From the IMG/VR virus record IMGVR_UViG_3300032401_000106, positions 1 to 20,335 of that record: DNA of 20,335 bases. One strand, 5' to 3'. The position numbers and the translations under genes were made by a program. The notes under the pieces are model-generated. The model was given only the letters and a program-made list of their open reading frames with translations. It did no database searches and was not told where the DNA came from. Positions 1 to 18,174 of this stretch are shown piece by piece. Position 1 is the stretch's first letter; the number at the start of each line of letters is the position of its first letter. The stretch is from a virus.

Positions 1-540
1 TAGACTGTCGATTTGCCACTGTTATTCGAATCAGACATAGCTACGTAGGGAACGCCTGAAGAATCGATAGCGATAGAAGTGTAATTTGAGTTGCCGCCGC
101 CGAAGGCTGCGCCTACTAGTGTCCAAGTACCCGAAACTAATTTATAGACTGTCGGTTTTTGGGTGTTACCCCCATCAGTAAAAACTACGTAGGGAACGCC
201 AGCAGAATCGATAGCGATAGAAGTGTAATTTGAGAAGTTGCCGCCGAAGGCTGCGCCCACTAGTGTCCAAGTACCCGAAACTAATTTATAGACTGTCGAT
301 TTGCCGCTGTTACCCCCATCCTTAAAAGCTACGTAGGGAACGCCTGAAGAATCGATAGCGATAGAAATGTACTGTGAGAAGTTGCCGCCGAAGGCTGCGC
401 CTACTAGTGTCCAAGTACCCGAAACTAATTTATAGACTGTCGATTTGAGGTTGTTATTCCCATCATTAAAAGCTACGTAGGGAACGCCTGAAGAATCGAT
501 AGCGATAGAAGTGAAACCTGAGTTGATGCCGCCGAAGGCT
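1..540 (-). repeat. 144-bp in-frame tandem repeats encoding 48-residue blades
   Basis: The string TAGACTGTCG recurs at 1, 145, 289 and 433, exactly 144 bases apart. There are three full units (1-144, 145-288, 289-432) and a shorter first unit in reading order (433-540), which lacks the KLVSGTWTLVGA segment. Units 2 and 3 differ at 14 of 144 bases by hand count. Each codes for KLVSGTWTLVGAAFGG, then SIAIDSSGVPYVAF, then an Asp/Gly/Asn-rich loop and a TVY end. Differences concentrate in that loop and in the short segment after AFGG. The array probably continues beyond the left edge. Confidence 0.95.
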
Positions 541-1604
541 GTGGTTAAAAACCCTAGGGCGGCTTTTACATATAAGGCACTATTTTCTGGCGTTAGACTA
601 GGCACATTTTGTGCAGCCTGTTTGGTTACGGCATTGCTCAATAAGTTAGCTAAGGTCGAGAGGGTTTGATTTGAATATTTTAAGGTCATACCCCCTTTCC
701 CTATAGCGCTACCATATGTAAACAATGCTTCCACCTCTGTTGGTAGTAGATATTGCCCTGCTGAAGGGATGGGTACAATTTCTACGGACGTTTGCCCAGC
801 GATCTGGGCTGCGTTAAGCGTAACAACTGCCGTTGAGGCACCCACAGAAACCCAAGTCAAAACCCCTGAACCATTGTTCTGGAGGAAGGTACTAGCTGCT
901 CCCTGCGAAGCCGGGAAGCTGGTTACAACGTCGTTGATCCGAGTTATGTTTCCTCCGTTACTCACGCGGAATTGGGAACTCGGACCTACAAGGAAAGCAC
1001 CTAGTGCTGTTCCTATCCCAGCAGCGTTTCGATTAACACTAACGGTAGTGTTAATGAAAGAGTGGGCCAATCCGTTTACTGTCAGATACTCCTTAGAACT
1101 ATCGTGTACACCAGCATTGCCATAACCTATAACAAAATTAGGGTTGGGTGAAGTGCTGCCCGTCAATAGGGCAAAGTTATCACCACCAGGGGCGGCCAAT
1201 GTAGCGCCACCGCCGAACCTAATCGTGCCATTCACATCTAATTTTTGTGCTGGGCTTGTCGTTCCGATACCTAACCGGTTGTTAGTGTCATCCCAGAAGA
1301 GGTTAGCATTATCCTGAGCCAGAACCCCAGCTGCGCCAGCAAATAGCACTGAACCGGCAGTAGCACTAGTGATGGTGTCACCGATAGCAACGCCGCTAAC
1401 AACTGTAGCCCATCTAAGACCGGTCGCTTGAGTAGAATCAGCAATAAGAGTCTGATTGTTGGTTCCAACACCCAGTCGAGTCGTCTGTGTACTATAGGTA
1501 AATAAATCGCCCTTGGTAGTCAAGGGAGATGGCATGCCGTTGGGAAAGCTCGGCGAACCTGTCCCAGCTGCGTCTGTGATCTGATCTACTTGAATCTTAC
1601 TCAT
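1..1604 (-). CDS. Tail fibre/adhesin with propeller-like repeats (3' end beyond window)
   Basis: This open frame starts at ATG 1604-1602 and stays open to position 1, giving about 534 residues before leaving the window. Residues ~26-40 read PLTTKGDLFTYST and residues ~105-125 carry NNRLGIGTTSPAQKLDVNG. Both are stock phrases of phage tail-fibre and structural adhesin proteins. Residues ~355-534 are four copies of a 48-residue repeat (SIAIDSSGVPYVAF core) that look like beta-propeller blades. The likely role is a distal baseplate fibre that binds the host surface; the repeats would be the exposed part. A weak SD-like TAGG lies 8 bases before the ATG. The gene follows the 1732-residue fibre gene after a 66-base gap holding a TATAAT. 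The true C-terminus is not visible, so a tip domain or chaperone domain cannot be excluded. Fibre identity is well supported by motifs; receptor binding is inferred. Confidence 0.85.
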   Translation of the reverse strand, partial: MSKIQVDQITDAAGTGSPSFPNGMPSPLTTKGDLFTYSTQTTRLGVGTNNQTLIADSTQATGLRWATVVSGVAIGDTITSATAGSVLFAGAAGVLAQDNANLFWDDTNNRLGIGTTSPAQKLDVNGTIRFGGGATLAAPGGDNFALLTGSTSPNPNFVIGYGNAGVHDSSKEYLTVNGLAHSFINTTVSVNRNAAGIGTALGAFLVGPSSQFRVSNGGNITRINDVVTSFPASQGAASTFLQNNGSGVLTWVSVGASTAVVTLNAAQIAGQTSVEIVPIPSAGQYLLPTEVEALFTYGSAIGKGGMTLKYSNQTLSTLANLLSNAVTKQAAQNVPSLTPENSALYVKAALGFLTTAFGGINSGFTSIAIDSSGVPYVAFNDGNNNLKSTVYKLVSGTWTLVGAAFGGNFSQYISIAIDSSGVPYVAFKDGGNSGKSTVYKLVSGTWTLVGAAFGGNFSNYTSIAIDSAGVPYVVFTDGGNTQKPTVYKLVSGTWTLVGAAFGGGNSNYTSIAIDSSGVPYVAMSDSNNSGKSTV

Positions 1605-1670: not shown

Positions 1671-4600
1671 TCACAATAACACTCTCCAGAAACCGCCTGG
1701 ATTCACTACTACTGTACCATCGATTATATCATCGCAAGTGAAAAGCTTCGCACCATTCGCTACAGTTAGTGTGTGCCCAGTCAACACGTGCATACCAAGA
1801 TGGGTGTGAACCTTTCCCGTAGCAACCGTGTAAGACATTAGTGTGGTGTCTACCAGGTATTCGGCCCCACCATTTACAGCACTATTAGAAAGATTGTCTA
1901 TTTGGGTCTGGATAGAAGATGTTACGCCATCCAGGTATTGGAACTCAGTGTTACTTACAGAACCATTTGCTACCTTAATCGCATCAATACCGGTAGCAAC
2001 CTCTGTGTTGGTGATTCCCCCTGTTGCAACTCTTAGACCAGAAGAAGATTTGCTTAAAGTACTACCATCAAGTTTAACTGCTAATTGAGCAGCAGAAACA
2101 GTAGACGAGATGCTGTTATCAACAGTGGTAAATAAGCCGCCAGCAGTGTGGACATCGACGCCCACTTCATCCGCAGGAAGTGCTACGATACCGGCACCAA
2201 GATTCACATTTAGAGTATTGCCATTCCAAGAAAGACCGATTCCAGCATTGGTGGCACTTGGCCCACTAAATTCCACCCAGTAGCTACCATTGTATGTATA
2301 GCTATGACCAAAATGGGGAGAACCAAGTTGACCAACATACACAGCGTGAGGAGTTGTTGGAGTGGTAAAAGTATAAGTGATAAATCCTGGAGTTGCTGAA
2401 ACAATTTGAGCAATCTTTTCATCTTGACCAGCAAGTCCGCCTGCACCAATAGTAAGCGATTCTACACTAACACCAAAACGATCATCAGTTGCAACTGGTC
2501 TACCCAATAAATCAATCCAACTACTACCATTCCAGAACAAAGCATAACCAGCATAACCAATCCACGCTCCAGAAGGAGTTGCCCCCACAATATAGACATC
2601 CCCATCTACAGGTAGACCGGGTGGGGCATTCAAGGAATCATCAATTAAATTTGGATCTAAAATTGGGTCCAACCATAAAGCACCAGTAGCAAATGCTGTT
2701 AATTGTGCGTAATTAACTGCATCATTTGCCAAAGTGCCATTTGCAAGACCAGTAATCTTGTTGGCACCCATGGCAAGATTGCCAGACATCGTGTCGCCAG
2801 CTTTAGCAACTTTGAGATCAGCATAAGCCTTGGTAGCGGCATCTTGCGCACCTGTTGGATCAACTACGTTTATTACGCGATTGGTGCCAGCATTTAGATT
2901 GGCAGTCATCGCATTAGTGCCATCTAATTTTAAATAGCCCCCAGCAACCGTATCGACATACCCCTTAGTAGATGCATCTGTTGCAAGTGTTGGGGTTGCA
3001 AGATTTATAATCTTATTGCTGTTTAGATTTAGGTTTGCAGACATTGACAAAGAGCCGTCTCTACGGACAAAATCTGTGTTCAAGTTTATTGCAGAACCAG
3101 CACCCTGCTTGAAGATAAATTGATCTGAAGCGTTGCGCCAAATACCCCAGTCAGTTACTGCTAGTGGATCAGAGACTTGCTGAGTAAAGGTTATCCCAGC
3201 TGGGTCGATGACGCCATCGACTTGTATATCGCCTTGAATCCAAAGCAGCTTAGTTCCTGGAGTACCAGCTACAGTAACAGGTAGACCTGTTACTACACTT
3301 ATGAACCTACCGTTGTCATAGGCATCTTGTAATGTCCCGTTGCCGGTAGAGTCAGATGCGAAGTACACTGCACCAGAAGCATCTGTGCGGAATGTCAGTG
3401 TGTCGCCTACCTGAAGATCCTGTGCCACAGTAATACGTTTTGACAACGCACCAGAAACGCCAACCTCACCCCAGTCGACACCTGTTCGTAGATACTGACC
3501 ATCGAGATACATCTCGAGTTGACCTGCACCTACAACATACTCCTGAACAGAGCTTATCGTACCGCGACTATCTGGTGGGAGCAAAATAACCATACCTGCA
3601 AGAATTGGTCCTTGCAGTTCATAGTTGCCAACAGGCAGACCTGGCACTATAGTGTACGATTCGTCGTACACATTACCATCAGGTCTTTGAGATTTGTTGG
3701 TTTCAGCTATATTGTCTAGAACGCGTGACCACAAAACAAACACGTCTTGATCAATAGGCACAACAGAGGTGTTGGTAATATAAATGGCACCACTTACATC
3801 AGTGTCTGGGGTATCGGTGGTCAATATTTGATTGAATGTCTTAGTCGCAAAACGATTTATACGAACCCAAGCCGACTGTTGATCTGTAAGAATAAGGGTG
3901 CCGAGTGCATTTATTGCATCAACATCGATAGTATTGTTACTTGAACCGGGAATTACAATGGATATATCAGGATCAAAACCCTGCTGCGTTATGGAGATTA
4001 TAAAAGTAGTACTGGGCGTGCCATTAGCTGCATTCTCAGTATAACCAACAAAATCTTGCACCAGAGTAACGATAGCACCAATATTTGTAGCGGTTACATA
4101 TGCACCGGCAGCAGTATTGAGAGCTGTTACGGTTTGAGCTGCAACCACTGTTGCTGTATCAGTAGACAACACAGACACAAGAATGCCAACCCTGCCAAAA
4201 GGAGCCGGGTCGGTACCAGAGCCGTTTACCTGATACCAGGCATAATATTTCGTTAGATTATCAACATTGTTGAATGTAAAATAACTACCAGGAATAACGA
4301 GACCACCAGCCAGTACAGTGATATCGGTACTCTCTACACCATCTTTAAGATCGAGATATAGAAGTCCTACAATAGGATCGAATTCGACTCTACCGGGATT
4401 AAAGACAAATACGTTCCTATTCTGGGAATCATCTGGATAATTAGTGTTTAAGTGACCCGAAGCAGCAATCGCTTCTCCTTGCCACGTATACACTGTTGTA
4501 TCGGCAAAACGATAGAACAAGATAATCTTGTTCTCAGCTATTAGATAATTATTACCCCAACTCTCAATCGTGGGTACCAGCGTAGCTGAACCATCGCGGT

Positions 4601-6869
4601 CAATATCGATAACAGCAACACTGTCGGCAGGTAAAGAAATAACCGATGTCAAGTTGATAGTCTGATCGGGACTACTGGGTTTCTTTAAAGTAAGATTTGT
4701 AAGAGTACTTACGTCCTGATTAATACCATTAGTAGCATTAACGATGTTTGTGCGGCCAACTATCTGGGTTCCGCGATCTTGAACGCGATCAGCCATCATG
4801 GCGGTTAGCTTAGATACTCGAGTTGTCAAGTTATCTGTAGCTAAGGAGTTATAGTTTTGAGCACCATTTAGCGCATTGTAGCTACCCGGAATACTATAAT
4901 TGGGTGTTGTTTGAGCAAGGGAATCCATGCCGATATACGACAGAAGATTCGCACTATCCATATCGCCGATATTAGCGCTCTCACCCTGAACAACCTTAAC
5001 AGTACCAAACTCAGTGCGTACGTTTAAGCGTGCAAGATTAACTATCTCACCAAGAGTTGGACCAGTTGTAGCAAGTGGACTAGCTACAGCGACTTGAACT
5101 GACGTGGTACTTCTATAATTTACTGTATATGAACCATCCCACGGTGATGCGCCAGCAACAGTGATCTGTTCGCCAGATTTAAATCCGTGTTGTGCAGTTT
5201 CAAGGGCATAACCAAAAGTAGTACTTCTTGCAGCAGTTGTAATGATGCCGTAATAAGCAGCACGACCAAGATCGTCGCCTGTCACAGCGGTGTTGATATT
5301 GAAAACAGTAGCACTTTCGTACTCTACCACATATGTTCCAGCATATGGGCCAGTAGCAATAGTGATTCTATCTTTGTCCAGAAGACCGTGCGCTGCACCG
5401 GTGGTACATTTAGCAGTTACACCATCTGTATCTGTGATATTTAGAGAAAGTGTAGTACTGACAGCGCTTGTTAGACCGAGCGATGTATCAGATCTGTATG
5501 CAAGCCAGAAGAAATTACCACCGGCTGTAGCAATAGCTGCATCATCTCTAGTGGTGAGATTGATATCTGCCGTCTGGTATTCGCCTTTAGTATATTGACC
5601 AACGTCGGTCCCCGTAATACCGGGATATACATCACTCAGTACTGCGTATAAGGCTAGAGCAGCAGTCGTAGGACTAGCGCCCAATGAATCAACACTCAGT
5701 TCCTCTATACGTCTAAAGTAAGAGTTTGGATCAGAAGATTTCTTAACCCAATCCCCTTTTGATATGTTGATAAATGAACCAGACACGCCGCTCAAGTAAT
5801 TGGTACCGCTATCCCAAGCTACTGGCGCAGACACATTATTAAAATTAGCCTCACGACTTAGATTGATCCATGCAACCATATCAGAGCTAGTCAAAGTGAC
5901 AGTATCAGCACGTACTATCAAGTCTCTTGAGTCAATTAGAGAATAGTAATGAAGATCCTCAGTCCACGTTGCTTCACCAGGGGTAACACCAGAATGTTGC
6001 CACTCACCCTTAGACTTAATCGTACTGCCTAAAGCATCTAGGAATGCGTTGTTGATACTTGGACCGCTGCCTGGCGTAGCACTACCTTGATACCAATAAG
6101 TTGTTCCACCGAGTTCTTTGATGCGTGTCATCACAACATCCATCCACTCTTTGAGAGTGCGGATGTTCTTGTCACCACCCTGGAATGGATTTGGATTCAA
6201 GGCCGTGGTCATCTTACCTGGTGGCTCTAACCGAGCATAGGACGCACTAGGGTCTTTGCGGAAATTGTAGGTAGAGAATGGATCTGGAGATATGCCACCA
6301 GTTCCAAGTCTAAAGAAATGATCTCGGCAGTCCTCAATAGACGAAATAACAGTCCCAATAACCACTTTACAGATGGGTATGGTGTTTTCTGGGAATGTCG
6401 ATGTAGAGACATTGACTTCAATCTTAAGAGCAGTCTGGGTATTTACGTCTTGACTGAATTCACCCCCAGCGCCGCCGTTCTGATCGGGATCCCAAAAGGC
6501 TCTACTATCGCGAGCTGTATCAAGAGTACCGAGGGTGAGATATACGAAGTTAGTCGCATTTTGTCTAAGTTCAGGAACAAGTGGTTGGGCATTTATATGG
6601 CCTTCTTTAAGACCATAATAGAAGGCGCCCGCTTGAGCTCCAGGGTAGTAGACAACTGATTCAGCAATCCTCAGTGAAATGCTGTTAAAACCAAGTGAAT
6701 CTTGGGGATTAATGACATCTAAACCATGAAGAATATAGGGTTTATCTGCCCCAATAAAACTTTGGATCAAATACTTGAAGTCAGCAGCCACATAAGAATC
6801 AACGGAAAGAAGATCCGCTAAATCAAGGCGCTCACCTGAACCAATTAAGAGACGTCCTAGTACTGCCAA
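1671..6869 (-). CDS. Large tail-fibre-like baseplate protein, 1732 residues
   Basis: This is probably the fibre or fibre-anchoring protein that occupies the gene H position of P2-like phages. Residues 1-330 (RLLIGSGERLDLADLL near the start) form an attachment-type region that I do not assign to a family. Residue ~364 onward holds a GSFINISKGDWVKK segment, ~475-615 two Ala/Gln-HG modules, and ~860-970 a YFTF...YYAWYQV module. Residues ~1266-1393 hold three fibre repeats ending in DAxxKxYxD-type motifs, and ~1415-1450 a DGDVYIVGATPSGAW segment like DUF2793. Near the C-terminus NTEFQYLDGVTSSIQTQI is typical of phage fibres. The start is TTG at 6869: a stop codon lies two codons upstream in frame, GGAG sits 8 bases before it, and the next Met codon is far downstream. 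No enzymatic motif was seen. Fibre-like identity is strong; its exact place in the particle is inferred. Confidence 0.87.
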   Translation of the reverse strand: MAVLGRLLIGSGERLDLADLLSVDSYVAADFKYLIQSFIGADKPYILHGLDVINPQDSLGFNSISLRIAESVVYYPGAQAGAFYYGLKEGHINAQPLVPELRQNATNFVYLTLGTLDTARDSRAFWDPDQNGGAGGEFSQDVNTQTALKIEVNVSTSTFPENTIPICKVVIGTVISSIEDCRDHFFRLGTGGISPDPFSTYNFRKDPSASYARLEPPGKMTTALNPNPFQGGDKNIRTLKEWMDVVMTRIKELGGTTYWYQGSATPGSGPSINNAFLDALGSTIKSKGEWQHSGVTPGEATWTEDLHYYSLIDSRDLIVRADTVTLTSSDMVAWINLSREANFNNVSAPVAWDSGTNYLSGVSGSFINISKGDWVKKSSDPNSYFRRIEELSVDSLGASPTTAALALYAVLSDVYPGITGTDVGQYTKGEYQTADINLTTRDDAAIATAGGNFFWLAYRSDTSLGLTSAVSTTLSLNITDTDGVTAKCTTGAAHGLLDKDRITIATGPYAGTYVVEYESATVFNINTAVTGDDLGRAAYYGIITTAARSTTFGYALETAQHGFKSGEQITVAGASPWDGSYTVNYRSTTSVQVAVASPLATTGPTLGEIVNLARLNVRTEFGTVKVVQGESANIGDMDSANLLSYIGMDSLAQTTPNYSIPGSYNALNGAQNYNSLATDNLTTRVSKLTAMMADRVQDRGTQIVGRTNIVNATNGINQDVSTLTNLTLKKPSSPDQTINLTSVISLPADSVAVIDIDRDGSATLVPTIESWGNNYLIAENKIILFYRFADTTVYTWQGEAIAASGHLNTNYPDDSQNRNVFVFNPGRVEFDPIVGLLYLDLKDGVESTDITVLAGGLVIPGSYFTFNNVDNLTKYYAWYQVNGSGTDPAPFGRVGILVSVLSTDTATVVAAQTVTALNTAAGAYVTATNIGAIVTLVQDFVGYTENAANGTPSTTFIISITQQGFDPDISIVIPGSSNNTIDVDAINALGTLILTDQQSAWVRINRFATKTFNQILTTDTPDTDVSGAIYITNTSVVPIDQDVFVLWSRVLDNIAETNKSQRPDGNVYDESYTIVPGLPVGNYELQGPILAGMVILLPPDSRGTISSVQEYVVGAGQLEMYLDGQYLRTGVDWGEVGVSGALSKRITVAQDLQVGDTLTFRTDASGAVYFASDSTGNGTLQDAYDNGRFISVVTGLPVTVAGTPGTKLLWIQGDIQVDGVIDPAGITFTQQVSDPLAVTDWGIWRNASDQFIFKQGAGSAINLNTDFVRRDGSLSMSANLNLNSNKIINLATPTLATDASTKGYVDTVAGGYLKLDGTNAMTANLNAGTNRVINVVDPTGAQDAATKAYADLKVAKAGDTMSGNLAMGANKITGLANGTLANDAVNYAQLTAFATGALWLDPILDPNLIDDSLNAPPGLPVDGDVYIVGATPSGAWIGYAGYALFWNGSSWIDLLGRPVATDDRFGVSVESLTIGAGGLAGQDEKIAQIVSATPGFITYTFTTPTTPHAVYVGQLGSPHFGHSYTYNGSYWVEFSGPSATNAGIGLSWNGNTLNVNLGAGIVALPADEVGVDVHTAGGLFTTVDNSISSTVSAAQLAVKLDGSTLSKSSSGLRVATGGITNTEVATGIDAIKVANGSVSNTEFQYLDGVTSSIQTQIDNLSNSAVNGGAEYLVDTTLMSYTVATGKVHTHLGMHVLTGHTLTVANGAKLFTCDDIIDGTVVVNPGGFWRVLL
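2690..3075 (-). repeat. Three ~43-residue tail-fibre repeats
   Basis: Residues ~1266-1393 of the 1732-residue protein hold three diverged copies of one unit. Each begins with a Gly- or Asp-Gly-containing start (RRDGSLSM, KLDGTNAM, KAGDTMSG), continues with ANLNxxxNKIxNL-like residues, and ends near DAxxKxYxD (DASTKGYVD, DAATKAYAD, DAVNYAQ). This is the common repeat of trimeric phage tail fibres. The copies are similar as protein but not near-identical as DNA, so this is an older array than the 144-bp one. Confidence 0.85.
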
Positions 6870-6877
6870 GTGTTATT

Positions 6878-6881
6878 CTCC
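6878..6881 (-). promoter_or_regulatory. Ribosome binding site that decides the TTG start at 6869
   Basis: GGAG on the coding strand lies 8 bases before TTG 6869-6867. The only nearby ATG (6883-6881) opens a different frame that stops after eight codons, and an in-frame TAA sits two codons before the TTG. This makes TTG the best-supported start for the 1732-residue protein. Confidence 0.65.
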
Positions 6882-6900
6882 ATTATCCAAGTTCACCTGA

Positions 6901-6906
6901 ATTATA
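6901..6906 (-). promoter_or_regulatory. Possible -10 box (TATAAT) before the 1732-residue fibre gene
   Basis: The 43-base gap 6870-6912 contains GGTATAATTC on the coding strand, 31 bases before the TTG start. That spacing would suit a short leader carrying the GGAG site. The bases 17 positions upstream do not resemble TTGACA, so support is limited to the hexamer and its place in a gap. Confidence 0.3.
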
Positions 6907-6912
6907 CCGTAA

Positions 6913-9036
6913 CTACTGTTGACCTGTGGGGTACAAAGTATCATTCCCGCTTCGATAGACATCTAAAACACTATATAGTTGCTCAGGGAAGCGAATCAAA
7001 AATTCGATAAAGATTCCAACTGACTTCACCTGCCGCAATAAATCCTGTAAGAGCTCCCTTGCCACCCCTGTATCGGTGACATATAAACTGTACTCTTTAC
7101 CCAAACCACTCATCACTATGGCCCCACGCCGCCTTATGATCGTAATGCTCGAACCTATCTCATGATTTTGCTTGAAAATATAGGTTGGATCAAGTTGTAC
7201 AGAGTTAGCTGTTGGCTTATACAACACTCTTACGGGTCCTTCTTGAAACTCTGTGCCAAAGTCAAAGATAGCAAAAGACTCTTCGTTACCGATATTGTTA
7301 GGTGAATCAATGGGCAATGTGCGAACATTGTTACCGGCCTTGATTTCCATTTGAATCGTGGACGTAAGTGACGACACTACAAAGGCCGCATTAAGATCCC
7401 AAGTATATGGACCTAAAATACCGGTATCGAGTTGAGCACTAGTTAGGTGCGCTATGCCGCCCTCATTAGACATGCCAATACGCTCAGTGCGACACACGCC
7501 CCCGGTATTAATCCCCGCAACTCCAATCGCTGAATAGGTGAACGATGTTGGTGAAGGAATAGAGGCTACAACAAATGTCCCATTTATAGTTGGATCTGCT
7601 ACTGAGTTTTGCACCCTAACACCCTCACCTATCAGAAATCCATGCGGCGTTACAGTGGCCACGGTAACTGTAGTACCAGCACGAGTGGCAGTGGATATGT
7701 TGGTCTCAAATAAGTCAGCAACTTCTGGCAAATCTGGCGTCACACCATTGAGGATGTTGCCGGTTTTAGAGGTGTAGGTGTACGCCTGATTATGATCAAA
7801 TCTAGTATTAAAATCCTTGGATAAAACAATGTCTTCAGAGATAGTGAGAACGTGAGTCTTAATCTCCTTCAACTCCTGGACAACAAATCGTCCTCCATTA
7901 AGAGGCCAATTGGTCGCATCTGCAACCTCAAGAGATGTCGCACTTAGTCTGTTGATTACTCGTTCTGAAAAACCGTTTATATGTGCGGAGCCAGCAAGAC
8001 CTCGTCTCACCACTGGTGGTGAGGCTGGCATCTCTACGATTATCTGCCCGGGTGACACTTCCCACACCACAGAGCGTGAGTCATTGCCGTATATTACAAG
8101 TTTTAATGGCGATATGAAGTTTAAAGCTGTAATAGAGGTATGAGTGTGAGAGCCAACTATGCCAAACAGGTTTACGAACGTAAAAGATGATGCAGATAGA
8201 TCAACTGTGTTTATCACGAATGAGCCTGTATTCCCAGGAATATCAATGATAGCGATATCGCCAATTTGCACCTTGTTGAGATTGGGGGTGGGTCCACCGG
8301 TGTGTTGAAACGTCACGGTATCACCAATCTTGGTGATAGTCCACGTAGTTCCAATGCTAGCCCCAGCATCCTCATTAAAGCCCTTAAATTGCAATCCTAT
8401 ATTAGCTCTACCACCAACTACCTGTATAGATCCTTTTGCACCAACGGTATTTGAGAACAAACGGATAAACTTCTTCTTCTGAATACGATCGTCATACACC
8501 ACAGCAAAACTATGACTAGTCTGCCGATTAATAACTCCAACGATTTCTTCTGCTGTAGCGGCAGCAATGTCGGTAAAGTTCTCAGTCTTAAACACAATCC
8601 GCTCTTCATGCACCTGATCAACGCGGTAGTTCAACTCCCAACCATCTCGAAGAGTTAATGGGGTAAACTTCATTGATTGAGTAAAGGATGTCGTAGTTTC
8701 CTTAAAGAAGAAGATGTCTAGTAAGGTGTCCATAACAAGTTTTACTTGTTTAGGTTGGTAGGCTAGAACAGGTATATAACGACGAAAATCGTCATCCTGC
8801 ATGCCGATAAACCTAGGCCTAGATATCTTAAAATTCGTACCAAGCCTATCAATATATGGTCTAGATGCAGTTTTGATAAAGAATTGTTGGCGCACTTCTT
8901 CCGTGAGATCTGCGAGTTTCTGATCTGATTCGCCAAGGGCTTCTATAAGAGCTTTCCAATTAGGGTTCTGCCGAGTTTTAAAATAACGCGGTAACTCATC
9001 ATGGATGCGATCTATTTTTGTTTTATTATTAGCCAT
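6913..9036 (-). CDS. gpI-like baseplate/tail wedge protein with inserted modules, 707 residues
   Basis: Position directly after the J-like gene and the two ends suggest the P2 gpI / T4 gp7-like role of a wedge protein linking the J-type core to the fibres. Residues 1-115 are helical-looking (LPRYFKTRQNPNWKALIEAL, then RPYIDRLGTNFKISRP) and ~635-690 form a second conserved-looking block ending near IEFLIRFPEQLYSVLD. Between them sit inserted modules: ~131-209 (AATAEEIVGVINRQ, then GSIQVVGG), ~235-305 (VQIGDIAIIDIPGNTGSF) and ~452-515 (TPHGFLIGEGVRVQ). Family members such as P2 gpI are under 200 residues, so this one is greatly enlarged. ATG 9036 follows the upstream TAA by one base and lacks a visible SD, so translation probably depends on coupling. 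The assignment rests on synteny and end motifs; I could not confirm it by alignment. Confidence 0.82.
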   Translation of the reverse strand: MANNKTKIDRIHDELPRYFKTRQNPNWKALIEALGESDQKLADLTEEVRQQFFIKTASRPYIDRLGTNFKISRPRFIGMQDDDFRRYIPVLAYQPKQVKLVMDTLLDIFFFKETTTSFTQSMKFTPLTLRDGWELNYRVDQVHEERIVFKTENFTDIAAATAEEIVGVINRQTSHSFAVVYDDRIQKKKFIRLFSNTVGAKGSIQVVGGRANIGLQFKGFNEDAGASIGTTWTITKIGDTVTFQHTGGPTPNLNKVQIGDIAIIDIPGNTGSFVINTVDLSASSFTFVNLFGIVGSHTHTSITALNFISPLKLVIYGNDSRSVVWEVSPGQIIVEMPASPPVVRRGLAGSAHINGFSERVINRLSATSLEVADATNWPLNGGRFVVQELKEIKTHVLTISEDIVLSKDFNTRFDHNQAYTYTSKTGNILNGVTPDLPEVADLFETNISTATRAGTTVTVATVTPHGFLIGEGVRVQNSVADPTINGTFVVASIPSPTSFTYSAIGVAGINTGGVCRTERIGMSNEGGIAHLTSAQLDTGILGPYTWDLNAAFVVSSLTSTIQMEIKAGNNVRTLPIDSPNNIGNEESFAIFDFGTEFQEGPVRVLYKPTANSVQLDPTYIFKQNHEIGSSITIIRRRGAIVMSGLGKEYSLYVTDTGVARELLQDLLRQVKSVGIFIEFLIRFPEQLYSVLDVYRSGNDTLYPTGQQ

Positions 9037-9037
9037 G

Positions 9038-12000
9038 TTATGCTACACTAATATCTTGAGGTTCAATAAAGGCTCTCTCTGAGTCAGATACGGGTATTCT
9101 CCCCTCGATACTCGCCAACGGAGCGCTAACCGTCATGGCCTCAATCCCTGTTATTCCCATGACACGAACTATAACCTCAGCTAAGATTGCATCACTACCT
9201 ATGCCTAATGTGTTAACGTAGCCCACTATAACAGACTTGATGTCATTTGTTATGTCGTTGATGTTAACACCCACATTAGTAGTAATTTGTAACACCATGC
9301 TCAAGCGCTTGATCAATGGCGGTAGGGTTTCTATGGCGCCGCCGATAGCACGACGACCTGGATAGGTAACCTGATCTGGTTCAAAACCATCCACAATGCG
9401 CTGTACTGTGCGCATTAGCCCGGTGTAGTATGTGTACCCGTCGATACCCGTAGTCACATCTACTGAGTACCCCAGTTTACCCATAGGAATTATCTGCGTA
9501 CCGCTGACCTGAGATACCTTATATGCTCTGGTAGCTGGAGTTAGGAAGACCTGACGACGATTGGTATTAAATGTATCAATAACAGTGTGTTCGATTCTAC
9601 GCAGACTTCTGTAGGTGTTATTGACACCCTCAATCAAGAAGTAGCCAATTGGACTTACAGAAATCTGGCGTGTAGATTGCGTAACTCCAGTCAAATTCTC
9701 TGTCCTAACGAATGGGCGACAGTCGGCAGTGCTGCCCACCTGTGTCAACTTGAAGGATCCAGAGTTTGCTGAACTGAACCAGTTCGCATGGGCGATATTA
9801 TCAACAAACAGTGTGTCATCCACTCTAGCAGAGTCGCCTTCAAGGATCTGTATATCGCCTACATTTTGAAGATACGCGCCTTTTCCTGCATCAAGTGTTT
9901 GATTAAAAGAGACACCAATTGATGTTGAGGTGGTTCCCTTATAATTCCCACCAAGAGTAACGACTGTAGCAGTGTCAAAAGAACCGGTATTCTTCGCAAT
10001 CACTTGACGATAAAGTGTCTCAGGATCTTCTTGTTTCTTTACCCAGGTGCCAATGCTGAGGTTCTTGAATGCACCTGCAGCCCCAGTCACCTGATCTAGG
10101 TTTGCAGCCCAATTAGTGGATAGATTCAAGTTGTTAAATAGAGTTGCCGTGTCTAACTGCTCAGTGGCTCCCTCATTTTGGAAGATAATCGAATCATTGG
10201 TCAATCCAAGAATTCGAAATGTTCCAGAGTTGGAGGCACCAAGTGTCTCACCGGAGATCACTATGAGGTCATCGACTGCAGCACCGCAGTCGATAAAGCC
10301 CGGTGCGTCACCATCTATCCAGCGAAGCTTATATAGACTATTAAACCCAGTCGACTCCACGGTGTATCGCGTAACTGTTCTTGCAGCATCGATCACATGC
10401 CCATCAACGTAGCTACCATTGGACGTCGCAGTGGTAAAAGTAAATGTCAGCACACTGGGCACTGTGAGCACAAGATATGTTGATGGAACCACATTGTTAT
10501 CAGTGAGAACAAAGGTATCACCCTCTTTTAATCCGTGCTGAATCAGGGTGGTGGCAGTTGCTGTACCCCCCAATACACTGATTTCTACCAATGGTATCTT
10601 AGCAGAGTGTTTTAGATTCCATTTGATAATAGGGGTCGGGACGATGCCAATATTCCCTGTTGTGCCTACTGCCTGATTAGTCATGGCGACACCATCTGGA
10701 TTGACTACGTCAACGTATCGGGCTACAGCATCTTTACCGACAATAGGTAAACCAGAAACATTGGCATCTCCAGTAGCTTTTGCTTTATTGCCGCTACTCC
10801 AACTAGACGAGAAGGTTCCATAGGCGCAAAGTAGATCACCAATCTCAACATCATCTAGGTTAGCACCTTGAGTTTGTGCTCCGATAAAATGTGTGCTGAA
10901 TGCTGCAGTTGCCAACAGTTCAATGGAGAGGGCAGATACAACCTCATCTTCTGTATTGCTGCTCAGAATATCAACACGTATTTGATTCGTAGCTGCTATA
11001 TAGGTTGCTCCAGTTGGAGCTGTTAAGTTGGCATCCACTGAGAACCACACAGCAAATGTGACGCCGCTTGCACTTTGGAATGTGAAGTAGTCAGCTTGAG
11101 TAGGTACGCCACTAACCGTAAGAGAAAAGGTCTGTGGAGTGGTGACAGAACCAAGATGTGGTGCGGGGATTTCAAAGTGAAGATTTGCAGCATCTGCAAT
11201 ACCAGCCGCTATCTCGTCGTCTGGTCCAATAGATGCTGCACCATTCACAGTTGCAGTAACGTTGAAAACTGAGCCGCCATCATTGTGGGTCCAACGCCAC
11301 ACTGTTCCAGCAGGGCGACCATATGACGTAGATTGGTCAGCAATCGTAAATCTAACAAAGGATCCTAATTGTGTGTCTTTGTAATTCCAGCGATACTCAA
11401 CGTTGCTGCCAACACCCTTAAGCACATCAATAGAGTCACCAATTTTTAGTTTAGATGCTCGCTTGGTGGGTTGTGCATTGACGATTTCCACATAATCGCC
11501 ACGTGTTAGGGTAACTGGAAATGCTGCCGTCTTAACTGCTAATAGGTTGTCAGGGACACCGGGAGAGATCTGTCCATCGCCGAATATAGATAGTGCAATA
11601 TTGTTGGCGTTGCCCCCAACCACTTCTACTGCGCCAGCGGATCCCAGTTCTTTAGACCTGACCTGTATTTTCCTTATTGCACTCGATATTGCCACGTCAG
11701 AAACAATGGGGAGTTGTGATAGTGCTTTCTGTGTGAAATGGTGATATACGTTGTTTAGCGTAACTGGCACCAGTTTAAAGAATTCACCGAGATCTGTTGT
11801 GTCGTGATTTGGCGCACTCTCGATAGCATAGGCAGTTGGAGCACTTCCTTGAAGTATCATTGCTGTCTTTAGGGAGAAGTTTGGTAGAGTATTTTCGAAT
11901 TGGCGAACCCAATTGATGCCATCATATAGGCTGACATATCCATTAACTGTATTCCCCGGATCTGGATCATGTCCATAAGACAGCGACATGCTGTAATCAC

Positions 12001-15000
12001 TCGGACCCGCAGGGAGATACTCCTCATCGCGGGTCGCTTTAACAATAGGGTTTGTACCACTAACCAATGCTGCATACAACACAGTGCTGTCAGCATTTAT
12101 TTGGGTTACAATGTCAGATACAGCTGTCCCCGTTAGTGAAAAGATAAGAACAGATGTTGCAATAGCGATGGTTTCAGGACCCGCATTAGTACCAGCAGAA
12201 GACTGCGCCGCAGTAAAACCTGAAGTCCCTACAGCAGCAGGTAGTCTTCCACCGTTTGCGGCGTCAGTGACAGTTATCACATTAGCGAGCACGGTGGCAG
12301 ATGCAAAACCAGAATCACCGTTGATAATCACGGCTGTCTTAGTTGCTATTGTGCCAGCACTGTCGCCAGCGCTTACAGTGCTGATTCTTACTGCCCTACT
12401 TGCACCGTGTAGAGGCTGTGGAGTAACACCAGAGACATCATACCAAAAGGCAACACTACCCGCAGCATCTTGAAGTATGAAGTATTTACCGTCCAAGCTT
12501 ACATCTGCCACACCGGTGAAGGGAGCACCAAAGGCGAAGCCTGTGGTATTCACACCTTCGGCAGCAGGAGCATATGGTCCATTATCCGCGTTTGTTATAG
12601 TTACAATGTTGCCAAGCACAGAAGCAGTAAACTCAGGATCAGCACCGACAATGCTCGCAGTCAATCCTGCAACAGTAACGGCAGAATCAAGCGCAACAAC
12701 TTTAACAACCAGTATGCGGTTTGCGCCATAAGATACGGGTGTACCAACAACACTGTTTGTGTCATATACTACAGCAACAACTCCAGCGGAGTCATTGAGT
12801 GTAAAGAAACTGTTATCTACAAGTGGGGGTGTTGCTGTAGTAGTTACCGTATTATAAGATTTACTTCCAATATTATCAGCAATGGTGGTTACTGCTGTAA
12901 CCTCCGGAGACCCGGCACCAGTTATGGTGGCCTCAGGATTGTGGACATCAACATATTTAAGAATATCGCTGACCGCCTTAATCCTAAATTGCCCTCTATT
13001 GGAGGCACTTACACCAGAATCACCAAGCATGCTGACAATGTCGCCAGCGACCACTGTTGCTAGGTTGGTACCAGGATTAGAGAATGTCAGGCGATAATCA
13101 TCGCCACCCAATGAAGTTACCGCAATAGTATCACCGGTTACAACCCCAGTTGCTTTGATAGAGCCAGAACCAAAAGTGTAGGTATTAAGAGCATAATTAG
13201 GAGTTGTACTATGCAATATAGTGCTTAGTTGATCTGGAGAAGTGGGGTACTCAATACGAAATCTATAGTTATCACCATGTGGACCGTATTCACGAGCACG
13301 AATTAGTAAGGCTCCACCACCTGATGTAGCACCACCAGATACATACCAGTTTCTAGAACGGAACCAAACAGCATAGTCTTTAAAATCCGTCTTGTTAGCG
13401 GTTTTCCCCCAAACTGGTAGACTGGAAAATATCACATTTGGTTCATTGTCAGCATCGTATGCAGAAAATGATTGATCAGATATAGGCAGCGATGTGCTAA
13501 CCCGTCCCGTTCGCGACATCCGGATATCTATAGTTTTCGCAACTGAATCTTGATCTAAGATGAAGACAATACTATCTTCAGCATTTATAGATATTGGTCT
13601 CACCAAATTGAAGCGATCATTAATACTATGATCCATCAAGGTGCGAGGTAGCGCATGCTGTGTTCCCACTCTATCGCCGGCCAGTTTATCTCGGATAGAG
13701 CGATATTGTCCCTTGTTATTGCCGTCCAGGTTGCTGATGTAATCGTCGTAATCTACCACAGTTGCATTAAGACTGTCAGTAGATTGAAGCTCTTCACTAT
13801 ATGGATCTGGATCTGGGGCAATAATGGGGTATGGACTATACACCCCTGGTATGGCATTGGACGTCAATACCCCACTTCTATCAGCATATGTAACTCGATC
13901 AAGCCAAACTAATTTACCCAATTCTGCGTCAGCATTGGTGCTCGTTGGTTCTGTGATTTTAAAGAAGGACACCAGATCTTTGCTAGACACCCTATTAGCG
14001 ATATGCGACGGATTGCCCGCATATTCAGGTTGTTGACTACTAAATAGGAAAGCGGCGTTACCTACGGATATTGGAAGCGCGATGCTGCCACCATCTTCTG
14101 TAGTAGAGGTGATTTTTACAGCACTAGTTTTAAAGACTGAGGCCTTTACATTCACCAGGTTGCTATTGATCGCATCAACGATACTTTGAATAGTGGCAGC
14201 AGGTGGGGTAGCAGTAAAAATCCCTTTCCAAAGTTGCAAAAATTTATCGGCTTTAAAGATCTGCATGTCTTCAGTTGCTGCAACAACATGAACACCGGGA
14301 ACAATATCTACATTCTTGACTTCAATATATGAATCAGTGTTGGCAACTGTGTGCCCACCTTTCGATACTATCTTGTACAATCCAGTGTTTGCAGGATCAA
14401 TCCATGAATCCAACCCACTATGACTGGTGATATAAATGAAGTCATGCGGTAATGCTGCTTCAAAAGACAACAATGAGTCTGACATCAACCGCATTACATT
14501 AGACGATTGATCTGTGATCGTGATCGTTTGGCCCAGAGCCAAACCTATGCCAGATCGCGAGTTAACCTCTAATGCATCTGCCGTTATTACAAGCTCTGCT
14601 GGTCTGTTTTTTGAGTCTGTCGATACATTGTAGGCACCCGTAATTGTCTCAGACGAAATAACACTCCCCTTAGCATCACTTGTTCCTGCGGTAATGGAAT
14701 CACCAGGGGCAATATCAGTAAGAATCCTAAGATTACCTGTTTGACGATTTAACTGAAAATTAGAATTCTGACCAACTGCTGCAATTTTTTGATTATTAAA
14801 TAAAGCGTTGAAATACGTACCGCCATCAATAGAGAGTGTTGATGCTGATCCGCTCTTGTTGGACACAATTTGTAACTTGCCGCTAGTTATGTTTGCAGTG
14901 GTTGTTACACCGGCGTACTTGGCGTTAAAAGCGGTGACCCAGTCTGTGAGCGTTACAGCAGTAAGCGCAATACCATTAAAATCTGTAGTGTCAAATCCCC

Positions 15001-16582
15001 TATTCTGCGGGGGTGTGCCATCCACTGATATGATTAGGTTTCCAGGGATTGAGATATTCCACGATGAAAACGTAGTTGTTAACAGAGAGGCAGACTTTTG
15101 CTCCTCATTTAGCAGAGTGTTATTTTGATATAGACGAATATAGGAATATGAGTTAGTTGGAAACTTCAATATCACATTCGCCGATTGGAGCGGATCATCT
15201 GTTGCCAGAAGAGGCGATACTTGGATAGTTTCTGTAGCATGATCAACAGGAAACAACAGTATGCTTGTCGACGTATCTGTAAACGTCGCCTTAAAGGTTG
15301 TAGATTGGTTATTGATGGCGACAATAATCTCACTGATAGTGGCTGCCGAGATATTAAAAAACTGACTACTGTTAAATACCACTGTCTCTTCTATGCTATC
15401 AACTAGTACACGCAACTCCATTCCATCTGTTAACTCATAGGGTCCATCTGCCACATTGATTACTTGAGGACGTGGAAGCGGATAATTGGCTAGTTGTAGA
15501 AACTCCTCATTACCGGATGCATCACTAAGTAGAGTGTCGACACTTTGTCCCTGGAATGACGGTTGAAAACCACTTCCATCGTCAATATACAGAATCGATG
15601 GATCCCCAACAATGGGTGGCTCCGTGACGGAAGCTGAGGCCACTTGTTTTCCATCATCAGAGTCATAGACCCCAATGATGGAAGATAGGATCGCAGATGC
15701 AGTACCACGGGCTAGGGTGGTTGAATAAGACTTAATGCGTTCACGAAAGGCATCATCTGTCTCAGCATCTCTTCCATCTGTTGGTGAAGAGGTATTAAAG
15801 ACAGTGGCACCGGTGAAGGGTAGAGCAGTAAAACTAGTGATAGTGTTTATGCCTGCATTATTCCGGGAACCGGATAAAACGGATGTGATACTGATATTGG
15901 TTACCGTATCTTCACCAGCAGGAATTACGGCATCCCTGAGTGTCCTAAATTCAACACTAGGGTTCTGATTGTTGGCAGGAATGATAATGGCCGTCCCAGC
16001 AGCTATCAATCGATCTACTGTACCCTGGCCATCTACAACCGTATCAGAGATTAGATGGTCTTTCTGCAGGGCAGATCCAAGTGTGACAGTGTAGAACGAA
16101 CCGTTATAGACGATCTCTGTATAGGGAATTGGGCCTTCAAAGTTTTGAGTACCGCGACCAATAAAGAGATCGCCCCACGCACCAATACCCAGCCCCACAC
16201 CGTTCCATGCCGATGCATCATTTACATATATTGTCGTAGAGCTAGAAATAGGGGGCGTTTTAACTTGATATAGGCCTGTACTTCGTTTAGAGATATTAGT
16301 ATCTTGGATAGTCACAAAACCAGTACTTCTTTGTGCTGAAATTCTTGACAAACCAAAGTCAGCTCCACGGGCATCTAGATCATTGTTTCTTGTGGCATCG
16401 ATATTGAGGAGTTCAAGGACGCTAAGAATTGATGCATTGGTTTCAAAGTCAGTCTGGGCAGCGGCCTCCAATAAAGACAGGAGTACAGACCCGGCATTAA
16501 GGTCATTAAGGGGCGTATCGGCAATTATTTTACGCACCATTTCGCCGAGAATCTGATTATAGCTGCGAATATCAATTGTCAC
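9038..16582 (-). CDS. Giant baseplate J-like wedge protein, 2514 residues
   Basis: This is the J / T4 gp6-type wedge subunit that forms the ring around the tail hub. Residues 1-80 give the usual N-terminus (NAGSVLLSLLEAAAQ, then LDARGADFGL). Residues ~205-340 contain the family core, with IPAG, a GRDAETDDAFRERI motif and ARGT. Residues ~2379-2510 form the J-type C-terminal domain (GLMRTVQRIVDGFEP, then VNINDITNDIKSVI). About 2000 residues between ~360 and ~2378 are extra: a DGMEL...ISAATISEIIVAIN module at ~385-456, two adjacent YFxLxDxAG modules at ~1253-1354 and ~1361-1467, a third diverged copy at ~1828-1911, an HGL module near 2013 and a WVKK module near 2170. Typical J proteins are about 300-660 residues. 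Start is GTG at 16582, with GAGGT 5 bases before and an in-frame stop just upstream. The frame is open throughout, so a sequencing fusion is unlikely. Confidence 0.95.
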   Translation of the reverse strand: MTIDIRSYNQILGEMVRKIIADTPLNDLNAGSVLLSLLEAAAQTDFETNASILSVLELLNIDATRNNDLDARGADFGLSRISAQRSTGFVTIQDTNISKRSTGLYQVKTPPISSSTTIYVNDASAWNGVGLGIGAWGDLFIGRGTQNFEGPIPYTEIVYNGSFYTVTLGSALQKDHLISDTVVDGQGTVDRLIAAGTAIIIPANNQNPSVEFRTLRDAVIPAGEDTVTNISITSVLSGSRNNAGINTITSFTALPFTGATVFNTSSPTDGRDAETDDAFRERIKSYSTTLARGTASAILSSIIGVYDSDDGKQVASASVTEPPIVGDPSILYIDDGSGFQPSFQGQSVDTLLSDASGNEEFLQLANYPLPRPQVINVADGPYELTDGMELRVLVDSIEETVVFNSSQFFNISAATISEIIVAINNQSTTFKATFTDTSTSILLFPVDHATETIQVSPLLATDDPLQSANVILKFPTNSYSYIRLYQNNTLLNEEQKSASLLTTTFSSWNISIPGNLIISVDGTPPQNRGFDTTDFNGIALTAVTLTDWVTAFNAKYAGVTTTANITSGKLQIVSNKSGSASTLSIDGGTYFNALFNNQKIAAVGQNSNFQLNRQTGNLRILTDIAPGDSITAGTSDAKGSVISSETITGAYNVSTDSKNRPAELVITADALEVNSRSGIGLALGQTITITDQSSNVMRLMSDSLLSFEAALPHDFIYITSHSGLDSWIDPANTGLYKIVSKGGHTVANTDSYIEVKNVDIVPGVHVVAATEDMQIFKADKFLQLWKGIFTATPPAATIQSIVDAINSNLVNVKASVFKTSAVKITSTTEDGGSIALPISVGNAAFLFSSQQPEYAGNPSHIANRVSSKDLVSFFKITEPTSTNADAELGKLVWLDRVTYADRSGVLTSNAIPGVYSPYPIIAPDPDPYSEELQSTDSLNATVVDYDDYISNLDGNNKGQYRSIRDKLAGDRVGTQHALPRTLMDHSINDRFNLVRPISINAEDSIVFILDQDSVAKTIDIRMSRTGRVSTSLPISDQSFSAYDADNEPNVIFSSLPVWGKTANKTDFKDYAVWFRSRNWYVSGGATSGGGALLIRAREYGPHGDNYRFRIEYPTSPDQLSTILHSTTPNYALNTYTFGSGSIKATGVVTGDTIAVTSLGGDDYRLTFSNPGTNLATVVAGDIVSMLGDSGVSASNRGQFRIKAVSDILKYVDVHNPEATITGAGSPEVTAVTTIADNIGSKSYNTVTTTATPPLVDNSFFTLNDSAGVVAVVYDTNSVVGTPVSYGANRILVVKVVALDSAVTVAGLTASIVGADPEFTASVLGNIVTITNADNGPYAPAAEGVNTTGFAFGAPFTGVADVSLDGKYFILQDAAGSVAFWYDVSGVTPQPLHGASRAVRISTVSAGDSAGTIATKTAVIINGDSGFASATVLANVITVTDAANGGRLPAAVGTSGFTAAQSSAGTNAGPETIAIATSVLIFSLTGTAVSDIVTQINADSTVLYAALVSGTNPIVKATRDEEYLPAGPSDYSMSLSYGHDPDPGNTVNGYVSLYDGINWVRQFENTLPNFSLKTAMILQGSAPTAYAIESAPNHDTTDLGEFFKLVPVTLNNVYHHFTQKALSQLPIVSDVAISSAIRKIQVRSKELGSAGAVEVVGGNANNIALSIFGDGQISPGVPDNLLAVKTAAFPVTLTRGDYVEIVNAQPTKRASKLKIGDSIDVLKGVGSNVEYRWNYKDTQLGSFVRFTIADQSTSYGRPAGTVWRWTHNDGGSVFNVTATVNGAASIGPDDEIAAGIADAANLHFEIPAPHLGSVTTPQTFSLTVSGVPTQADYFTFQSASGVTFAVWFSVDANLTAPTGATYIAATNQIRVDILSSNTEDEVVSALSIELLATAAFSTHFIGAQTQGANLDDVEIGDLLCAYGTFSSSWSSGNKAKATGDANVSGLPIVGKDAVARYVDVVNPDGVAMTNQAVGTTGNIGIVPTPIIKWNLKHSAKIPLVEISVLGGTATATTLIQHGLKEGDTFVLTDNNVVPSTYLVLTVPSVLTFTFTTATSNGSYVDGHVIDAARTVTRYTVESTGFNSLYKLRWIDGDAPGFIDCGAAVDDLIVISGETLGASNSGTFRILGLTNDSIIFQNEGATEQLDTATLFNNLNLSTNWAANLDQVTGAAGAFKNLSIGTWVKKQEDPETLYRQVIAKNTGSFDTATVVTLGGNYKGTTSTSIGVSFNQTLDAGKGAYLQNVGDIQILEGDSARVDDTLFVDNIAHANWFSSANSGSFKLTQVGSTADCRPFVRTENLTGVTQSTRQISVSPIGYFLIEGVNNTYRSLRRIEHTVIDTFNTNRRQVFLTPATRAYKVSQVSGTQIIPMGKLGYSVDVTTGIDGYTYYTGLMRTVQRIVDGFEPDQVTYPGRRAIGGAIETLPPLIKRLSMVLQITTNVGVNINDITNDIKSVIVGYVNTLGIGSDAILAEVIVRVMGITGIEAMTVSAPLASIEGRIPVSDSERAFIEPQDISVA
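12180..12826 (-). repeat. Two adjacent ~108-residue modules inside the J-like insertion
   Basis: Copies at about 12826-12520 and 12500-12180 align by eye. Both run xxFxLxDxAGxVAxxYD, then a Gly-Ala-x-Arg turn, then DSA, then a segment ending FxAxVLxNxxTxTxAxNG and a final Gly-Phe. A third, more diverged copy starts near 11100 (ADYFTFQSASGVTFAVWF), and a relative lies in the 1732-residue fibre protein near 4290-3950. They are likely small beta domains; function is not known. The boundaries are approximate. Confidence 0.75.
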
Positions 16583-16587
16583 CTTTT

Positions 16588-16592
16588 ACCTC
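16588..16592 (-). promoter_or_regulatory. Ribosome binding site that decides the GTG start at 16582
   Basis: GAGGT on the coding strand lies 5 bases before GTG 16582-16580 and overlaps the TGA stop of the upstream gene (16593-16591). The in-frame TAA two codons before GTG and the first internal Met at residue 15 make GTG the only start that keeps the whole J-type N-terminus. Confidence 0.7.
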
Positions 16593-18174
16593 AACCTGTA
16601 TTAATGACGAAGTTAATTGGCAGTAAAGATCCAGAGCCTGCCAATCTAACGACTAGAGAAATTATAGCAGAACCTTGATCAATGGTCACATTCAGAGTCT
16701 CTATTCTCGAGAAGCGCTCATCAGCCTCTACCATGGAGTTTATACCTGTAATAAGAGCATCTTTAATATTGTTGGGGTCACTGTTTTTCACCCCCACCAC
16801 AGAAGGCAATCCATACTCTGGATGCCTAATAGATTGCCCTCTTTCTGACACCATTTTGAGCTGCATTGCCTGCATGGCGTTAGTTAGACCAAAATTAAGT
16901 TGAAAATCTCCGTTAGCAGCGAATACTAGGTCGTTCTTCGTATCAAGCAGTAGATCTACGCCCGCTCTTTTCTCATCTTCACTCTTGGACGCCAAGAAGA
17001 ATGGCGTCTCCTTAGTGGACGACTGCGAAACTGCATCTGGTTGTGGAAGCATGATTAGAAAATTACTATTAATCGTGTTTGGTTTAAATATCCGTATGTG
17101 CGCATTATCAATAGTTTGATATAGACCTAAGTTGGCTTCGCCATTTAACTCAATCACTATCTCGCCAGAGATGGGGATTTCTCTAATATTTATAATCGCG
17201 CGTTGATCGGGAAACTTAATTGCAGTAGACTGTAGAAACACAACTTGATTTATATATAGTTTTTCAATATTGGGCGCACCAGAACCGTCGAGTTTAGCAA
17301 TATTTAACTGACTATCGCTACCATTAGAAATCATTGATATTGTTTGACCAATTTCATCAACATAGGGTGGCTTCAATCCATTTGCAACCGCAATCTCGAT
17401 CCAGCGCTCGGGATCATCTAAATAGCGGGCTGCAATAGCCTGTAGACTGTCACCAAAGAACATGCGAACCAGTTGACCCGACAAACCTGTTTGAATATCA
17501 ATGTCGGGATTATTGGCGTTAGCTCTCGCAAGAGCAAACGGATCTACATTGGTCGTCGACAATGACGCCGTATTTGCTAGTATGTAGTCAATTGCAAATA
17601 TCGATTGCTGAAATGTCTGCATATCGGCGATATCACTTATCCTGACCGCGCGGAGTTGTGGCGTAGAGCTTCTACCAAAGGTGGTGTTGTAGTCGGTATC
17701 CGATAGACCCACGGTATCGGCGATTTCATTTCTACCGTCTACCAGACTCTGCCGTATGTTTAAGAAGTCTGTTTTTATAAACCGGCGTATACGAGAGAGT
17801 TTGTTGTTGGCTAGGGCAGACTCTTCTTTCGTTAAGGGAATACTGGTGAATTCAATGTTTTCCCATACAGCATAATATGTATTCAAGATATCAGATCTAG
17901 CGAATGGATTTACGCGCTTGTTCGCATCGTTACGCTGTATGCGAATAAGTTCACTCAAGCTGTTGATTTGATCACTTAATATATCGGGGTACACATAAGT
18001 GTTTAGTTTCGCTGTTAGGGAGTCTAAGATAAACTCCCAGTTTTCACGGAAATAAACCCAACGAAGAGGAATGACCTCTTGCACATCGGCAAGGGTTAGA
18101 TCAACACCAGACTGATCGTTGAACCAAATTTTTAATTCACATAGATTCTTGAATGCTGTGTCTATTAGTGACAT
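16591..18174 (-). CDS. LysM plus gp25/gpW-like baseplate wedge protein, 527 residues
   Basis: Residues ~405-525 match the gp25-like wedge family: a VDLLLDTKNDLVF opening, a run of self-input data residues (GDFQLNFGLTNAMQAMQ), an IRHPEYGLPS motif and an alternating beta end. Residues ~235-275 look like a LysM fold (FFGDSLQAIAARYLDDPERW, then ANGL). Residues 1-200 are mostly helical and unassigned. P2 gpW and T4 gp25 are small single-domain proteins of about 115-130 residues. In T4 the LysM-type fold is in a separate wedge protein, gp53, so this may be a fused gp53-gp25 equivalent. ATG 18174 overlaps the upstream TAA as TAATG, with AGAGGGG 7 bases upstream. Position just before the J-like gene is the usual W-J order. 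The gp25 assignment is strong; the LysM call is moderate. Confidence 0.9.
   Translation of the reverse strand: MSLIDTAFKNLCELKIWFNDQSGVDLTLADVQEVIPLRWVYFRENWEFILDSLTAKLNTYVYPDILSDQINSLSELIRIQRNDANKRVNPFARSDILNTYYAVWENIEFTSIPLTKEESALANNKLSRIRRFIKTDFLNIRQSLVDGRNEIADTVGLSDTDYNTTFGRSSTPQLRAVRISDIADMQTFQQSIFAIDYILANTASLSTTNVDPFALARANANNPDIDIQTGLSGQLVRMFFGDSLQAIAARYLDDPERWIEIAVANGLKPPYVDEIGQTISMISNGSDSQLNIAKLDGSGAPNIEKLYINQVVFLQSTAIKFPDQRAIINIREIPISGEIVIELNGEANLGLYQTIDNAHIRIFKPNTINSNFLIMLPQPDAVSQSSTKETPFFLASKSEDEKRAGVDLLLDTKNDLVFAANGDFQLNFGLTNAMQAMQLKMVSERGQSIRHPEYGLPSVVGVKNSDPNNIKDALITGINSMVEADERFSRIETLNVTIDQGSAIISLVVRLAGSGSLLPINFVINTG

Follow-up and report, generated by a model that had tools for sequence, protein, structure and literature searches.

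Genes of the window and the repeat array

The stretch of DNA analysed here (hereafter the window) is an entire viral record of 20,335 bases, and the gene that carries the repeat array, the last one of the contig and cut by the left edge of the record, lies directly downstream of baseplate and tail-fibre genes and hence within the tail/baseplate module (Table 1). The baseplate wedge-like protein of 2514 aa (window positions 9038-16582) is very long, and its family profile matches part of it only.

Table 1. Features of the window, with positions in window coordinates
Feature	Position	Strand	Basis or remark
Fibre gene	1..1604	-	ORF with ATG at 1604; 534 codons present; runs off contig edge
N-terminal fibre part, 352 residues	549..1604	-	GIGTTSPAQKLDVNG motif common to many viral contigs
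LTTAFGG, like the D-strand end of a blade (..TLVGAAFGG); possible ring-closing strand	528..548	-	Inferred from alignment with the units
Blade 1 (INSGFTSIAID...AAFGG)	384..527	-	
Blade 2 (NFSQYISIAID...AAFGG)	240..383	-	
Blade 3 (NFSNYTSIAID...AAFGG)	96..239	-	
Blade 4, first 31 residues	1..95	-	Rest cut by contig edge
Variable B-C loop of blade 1; counterparts at 303-317, 159-173 and 15-29	447..461	-	AlphaFold2 strand limits
D-A loop joining blade 1 to blade 2; counterparts at 234-245 and 90-101	378..389	-	AlphaFold2 strands and variability
Preceding tail-fibre gene, 1732 aa	1671..6869	-	DUF2793; weak YadA-stalk match
Baseplate genes: 707 aa baseplate protein and 2514 aa wedge-like protein	6913..16582	-	phrog_1160, phrog_6

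The N-terminal part of the array-bearing gene matches phrog_5906 (E 7e-7) and has relatives encoded by 215 viral stretches, the best 80 of which match mostly over residues 70-130. The tail-fibre assignment made in the initial annotation is putative and rests on position and on this fibre-like N-terminal part, the gene having given no hit to a named tail-fibre family.

The nearest large relative is a 167.5-kb record (L086) encoding a protein 81% identical to the 707-aa baseplate protein; its DNA aligns with window positions 4392-18452 and, over short stretches, with 3115-3935 and 18889-19030, and similarity fades in the C-terminal part of the 1732 aa tail-fibre gene. Beyond the aligned region L086 carries different fibre ORFs, with neither blades nor a match to the fibre N-terminal part, as expected of a host-recognition module; from this comparison, the fibre end of the window is apparently a module that can be replaced, a common property of genes for host recognition. 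The only near-identical contig found (L088) comes from the same virus and shares 99.9% identity with the window over 13,515 bases (window 5522-19036); it stops at window position 5522, short of the fibre genes. Viral contigs, scanned at both the protein and the DNA level, yielded no close relative bearing the array, and phage records gave a single weak match (E 2e-5) that the blade profile supports poorly.

Tandem Repeats Finder detected one array, at positions 39-541, with a period of 144, 3.5 copies, 89% matches, no indels and a score of 810; the next-best array in the window scored 55, and there were no others. The repeats are in frame with a minus-strand ORF (3-1604) that runs off the left contig edge, and in the register used here (527-384, 383-240, 239-96 and 95-1) the 3' end of the gene consists of 3.6 in-frame units, each exactly 144 bp. 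Complete units share 89-90% DNA identity, differing pairwise at 14-16 of 144 bases (exactly 14 between units 2 and 3), and the partial fourth unit shows 15-20 differences from each of them in its 95 bases. The initial annotation had described in-frame repeats exactly 144 bases apart and about 90 percent identical, with the same 14 differences between units 2 and 3, and had placed the changes after PYVAF and after AFGG, all of which is borne out: the residues after PYVAF read NDGNNNLK, KDGGNSGK, TDGGNTQK and SDSNNSGK, and those after AFGG read NFSQY, NFSNY and GNSNY. The contig end falls inside the array, and short-read assembly of such repeats is unreliable, with short-read assemblies of the fungal HNWD arrays failing (PMC12222747), such that an assembly artefact or a chimaera at the contig edge might be suspected. 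We consider this very improbable: the units are ordered, in frame and at least 14 bases apart from each other, the longest identical stretch between aligned units is 59 bases, and the changes obey codon and structure logic.

Predicted fold and number of blades

AlphaFold2 modelled the window fragment with a pLDDT of 92.3 and a pTM of 0.89, placing strands at unit positions 3-10, 16-22, 28-35 and 38-46, so that the 48-residue unit forms four strands in the tandem antiparallel arrangement of a beta-propeller blade. Relatives and models together yield the high-confidence prediction that each window unit is a four-stranded beta-propeller blade; confidence is low (pLDDT 69) for the LTTAFGG stretch (528..548). 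Pfam has no family that convincingly covers the repeat and NCBIfam gave no match; BNR_4 reached 27.9 bits against a cut-off of 27.3, and it was not taken as the family because no single stretch passes.

A search with a blade profile derived from the window units located the same blade in a viral-collection contig (L083), in MAGs of Tepidibacillus (L084) and Bacteroidia (L085), and in plasmids of Acidovorax (L089) and Pseudoalteromonas (L090), and matches occurred in 7/395 and 13/398 sampled genomes (two phyla, at the thresholds used). Elsewhere the blade family is found for the most part in proteins of bacteria whose architecture is that of secreted or surface proteins, and even the propeller gene of L083 resembles a bacterial lipoprotein. 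On that 27-kb contig (L083:1933-5223) the lipoprotein-like protein combines Ig-like domains with a seven-blade propeller, and its gene may sit at the edge of a prophage rather than be a phage gene. The Bacteroidia MAG holds a 5166-aa open frame (G004:C1:229922-242992) with several propellers of the window blade type and, on other contigs, more blade-bearing frames of 2610-4209 aa.

Blade counts were seven in L083, seven in L089 and 7+7 in the two domains of L084; among the 27 arrays located off contig edges, 21 had seven blades, four had six, one had five and one had three, and the counts below seven may include missed blades. The propellers of L084 and L089 start with an extra clear D (fourth) strand (SWEIVGSPQFSGG and AWQVVGTAGFSAG), and the fourth strand is missing from the last blade of homologous arrays, a combination that appears, from the sequences, to be a ring-closure pattern. 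A homologous seven-blade domain of L084 was modelled with a pLDDT of 91.0 and a pTM of 0.90, with four strands in blades one to six and three in blade seven. Among PDB folds, this domain is best matched by Photorhabdus PLL lectins together with sugar-active propellers and enzymes (for PLL, E 7.6e-13, TM 0.64-0.68), and with 10-15% identity and no PDB sequence match at E 0.01, the likeness to these seven-bladed lectins is one of fold only. In the same MAG (L084:2897-5437), the protein sequences of the two seven-blade propellers hardly differ from a point inside blade 3 through blade 7, while blades 1-2 are different, which we read as a recent event that duplicated or converted the greater part of a propeller.

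Seven blades is the number that closes the ring in the homologous family. The window model spans 3.6 blades, a seven-blade domain having been modelled with high confidence for the L084 homologue, and extrapolation from the homologues makes the window propeller most likely seven-bladed; because 21/27 complete homologous arrays have seven blades, about half of it probably lies beyond the contig edge, in keeping with the truncation noticed initially. The same count weighs against the initial suggestion, as it was worded, that copy number could change host range: a change in copy number appears less likely as a mechanism, since a complete ring apparently takes seven blades.

Distribution of change over the blade

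By the geometry of an antiparallel blade, one face carries the D-A and B-C loops and the opposite face the A-B and C-D loops. We split each predicted strand at about its middle, which assigned 25 codons to the D-A/B-C half and 23 to the other. Fifteen of the 48 codons vary among the window units, 14 of them altering the amino acid and one being silent only, and the amino-acid-variable codons are concentrated in the D-A/B-C half (13/25 vs 1/23, Fisher p = 2.6e-4); a post hoc scan for clustering that made no use of structure was weak (p = 0.04 to 0.26). Substitution is thus not uniform across the unit, and the constant scaffold with variable loops anticipated in the initial annotation agrees with both the predicted structure and the variability by half. 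Relatives show the same one-face tendency more weakly (p 0.008-0.06), and the columns variable in the window are also more variable in them (Mann-Whitney p 1e-4); variable D-A/B-C loops on a constant scaffold are therefore, as far as these alignments indicate, a trait of the bacterial blade family and not special to the phage.

What distinguishes the window is near-zero synonymous change together with high amino-acid change. Recent amplification is visible in the DNA of the complete units (89-90% identity, pS 0.06), which lie above the 60% identity that marks highly repetitive propellers, and over all codons pS is 0.062 and pN is 0.161, giving a pN/pS of 2.26, although ratios of this type tend to rise at low divergence; all other surveyed arrays, some of which overlap or share a genome and so are not all independent, fall at 0.35-0.80. 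Comparable similarity at silent sites was seen outside the window in just two homologous blade pairs (pS 0.039 and 0.106), whose pN values are 0.011 and 0.033. The excess of pN over pS rests on 28 variable sites in 3.6 blades of one truncated metagenomic contig, persists after any one unit is dropped, and has a codon-bootstrap 95% CI for pN-pS of 0.021 to 0.170. It is confined to one face: in the variable-face half pN is 0.273 vs a pS of 0.066, and in the other half pN is 0.013 and pS 0.058, that is, diversification at few positions as in the HNWD repeats. Because silent divergence is equal in the two halves, both are of like age and mutation rate and only amino-acid change differs, which argues against locally raised mutation as the cause of the one-face change. 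The pattern fits a recent amplification of blades, after which a binding surface came under diversifying selection.

Could loops that are simply unconstrained have drifted after an ordinary recent amplification, with neither diversifying selection nor a special role? There is good documentation, also from viruses, of near-identical blades that were amplified recently (PMC9218822), and bacterial relatives vary in the same loops. Drifting loops, however, predict a pN close to pS, and not the values of the variable-face half given above; every other surveyed array has a pN/pS below 1; and neutral simulations, run from a consensus with three settings of transition bias and three of multi-base change, reach the observed pN-pS in only 0.2-1.3% of runs (p 0.002-0.013, all codons). 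We regard drift alone as quite unlikely.

Somewhat less unlikely, though still not favoured, is homogenisation, in which the scaffold stays identical through gene conversion or unequal crossover and old, divergent loops are swapped between blades or strains. Loop codons are often two or three bases apart (GGG/TCG, CTC/GGC/CAA), unlike single point mutations, and similar concerted evolution has been proposed for the fungal HNWD repeats (PMC12222747). Imported old loops should nevertheless exceed the scaffold in silent change, which the near-equal pS of the two halves does not bear out, and the informative sites in the window are too few to show mosaic structure. Homogenisation is compatible with selection, and both may act.

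Phage fibres are known targets of diversity-generating retroelements, in whose targets AAY-type codons are frequent, and some variable codons of the window are of this type. Base changes are not restricted to A, however, with only 17/28 variable sites having A in any copy, and a search of the window, the 167.5-kb relative and the record of the near-identical contig detected no reverse transcriptase, whereas positive controls were detected. We therefore rejected targeted mutagenesis by such an element, which is extremely improbable on these grounds, the window genome being partial and the absence of the enzyme resting on the relatives.

Proposed origin and comparison with known systems

We consider it likely that the array is part of a phage-fibre propeller, probably of seven blades, that was recently amplified from one blade and diversified by selection on one face. 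The phage would have acquired a bacterial-type 48-residue blade, and recent amplification of this single blade would have produced a propeller at the 3' end of the fibre gene; selection would then have diversified amino acids on the D-A/B-C loop face, with the core and the opposite face held constant. We infer that the variable face is an interaction surface, probably the one meeting the host, in a propeller most likely placed at the fibre tip, where it would bind a surface glycan or protein and so contribute to receptor binding and host range. Near-identical blade DNA would allow recombination between blades to reshuffle this face; no exchange between blades was observed in the window.

The closest parallel appears to be the HNWD WD40 sensors of Podospora anserina (het-d, het-e, het-r), whose blades are 80-100% identical and in which four codons under diversifying selection map to the predicted interaction surface (PMC12222747). 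Both systems have tandem, near-identical propeller blades with few diversifying codons, but the HNWD blades have 42 residues and belong to a fungal NOD-like receptor, as opposed to 48 residues in a phage, and concerted evolution and copy-number polymorphism are documented for HNWD (PMC12222747) whereas the window is known from one contig. More tentatively, and with considerable doubt, the phage may run an HNWD-like cycle that dispenses with a retroelement: a blade is amplified, the scaffold is kept identical for recombination, and one face is diversified into new host-binding surfaces. If so, both sides of recognition conflicts would use a design of near-identical blades, and phages would have an added route to changed specificity, separate from retroelements and domain swapping; blade amplification, and diversifying selection on near-identical blades in fungal immune receptors, are already known. 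Because the blades are nearly identical, long reads could put this prediction to the test.

The literature searched held no earlier report of a phage-tail propeller with repeated blades under diversifying selection; what the search returned concerned polymorphic toxins. Propellers do occur, as in the window, in phage host-recognition or baseplate-periphery proteins, namely phi11 Gp45 (five blades), PRD1 P2 and phiKZ gp131C (seven), which, unlike the window, are not described as near-identical-blade arrays in that account (PMC4901313); the window array has no significant match among PDB sequences and is, as far as tested, unrelated in sequence to these phage propellers. Recent amplification of a single blade has been described across the propeller superfamily, in bacterial and some viral members, in a paper whose main text makes no use of the terms phage, tail or positive selection (PMC9218822), and the highly repetitive propellers of Pereira and Lupas resemble the window in having arisen by recent amplification of one blade.
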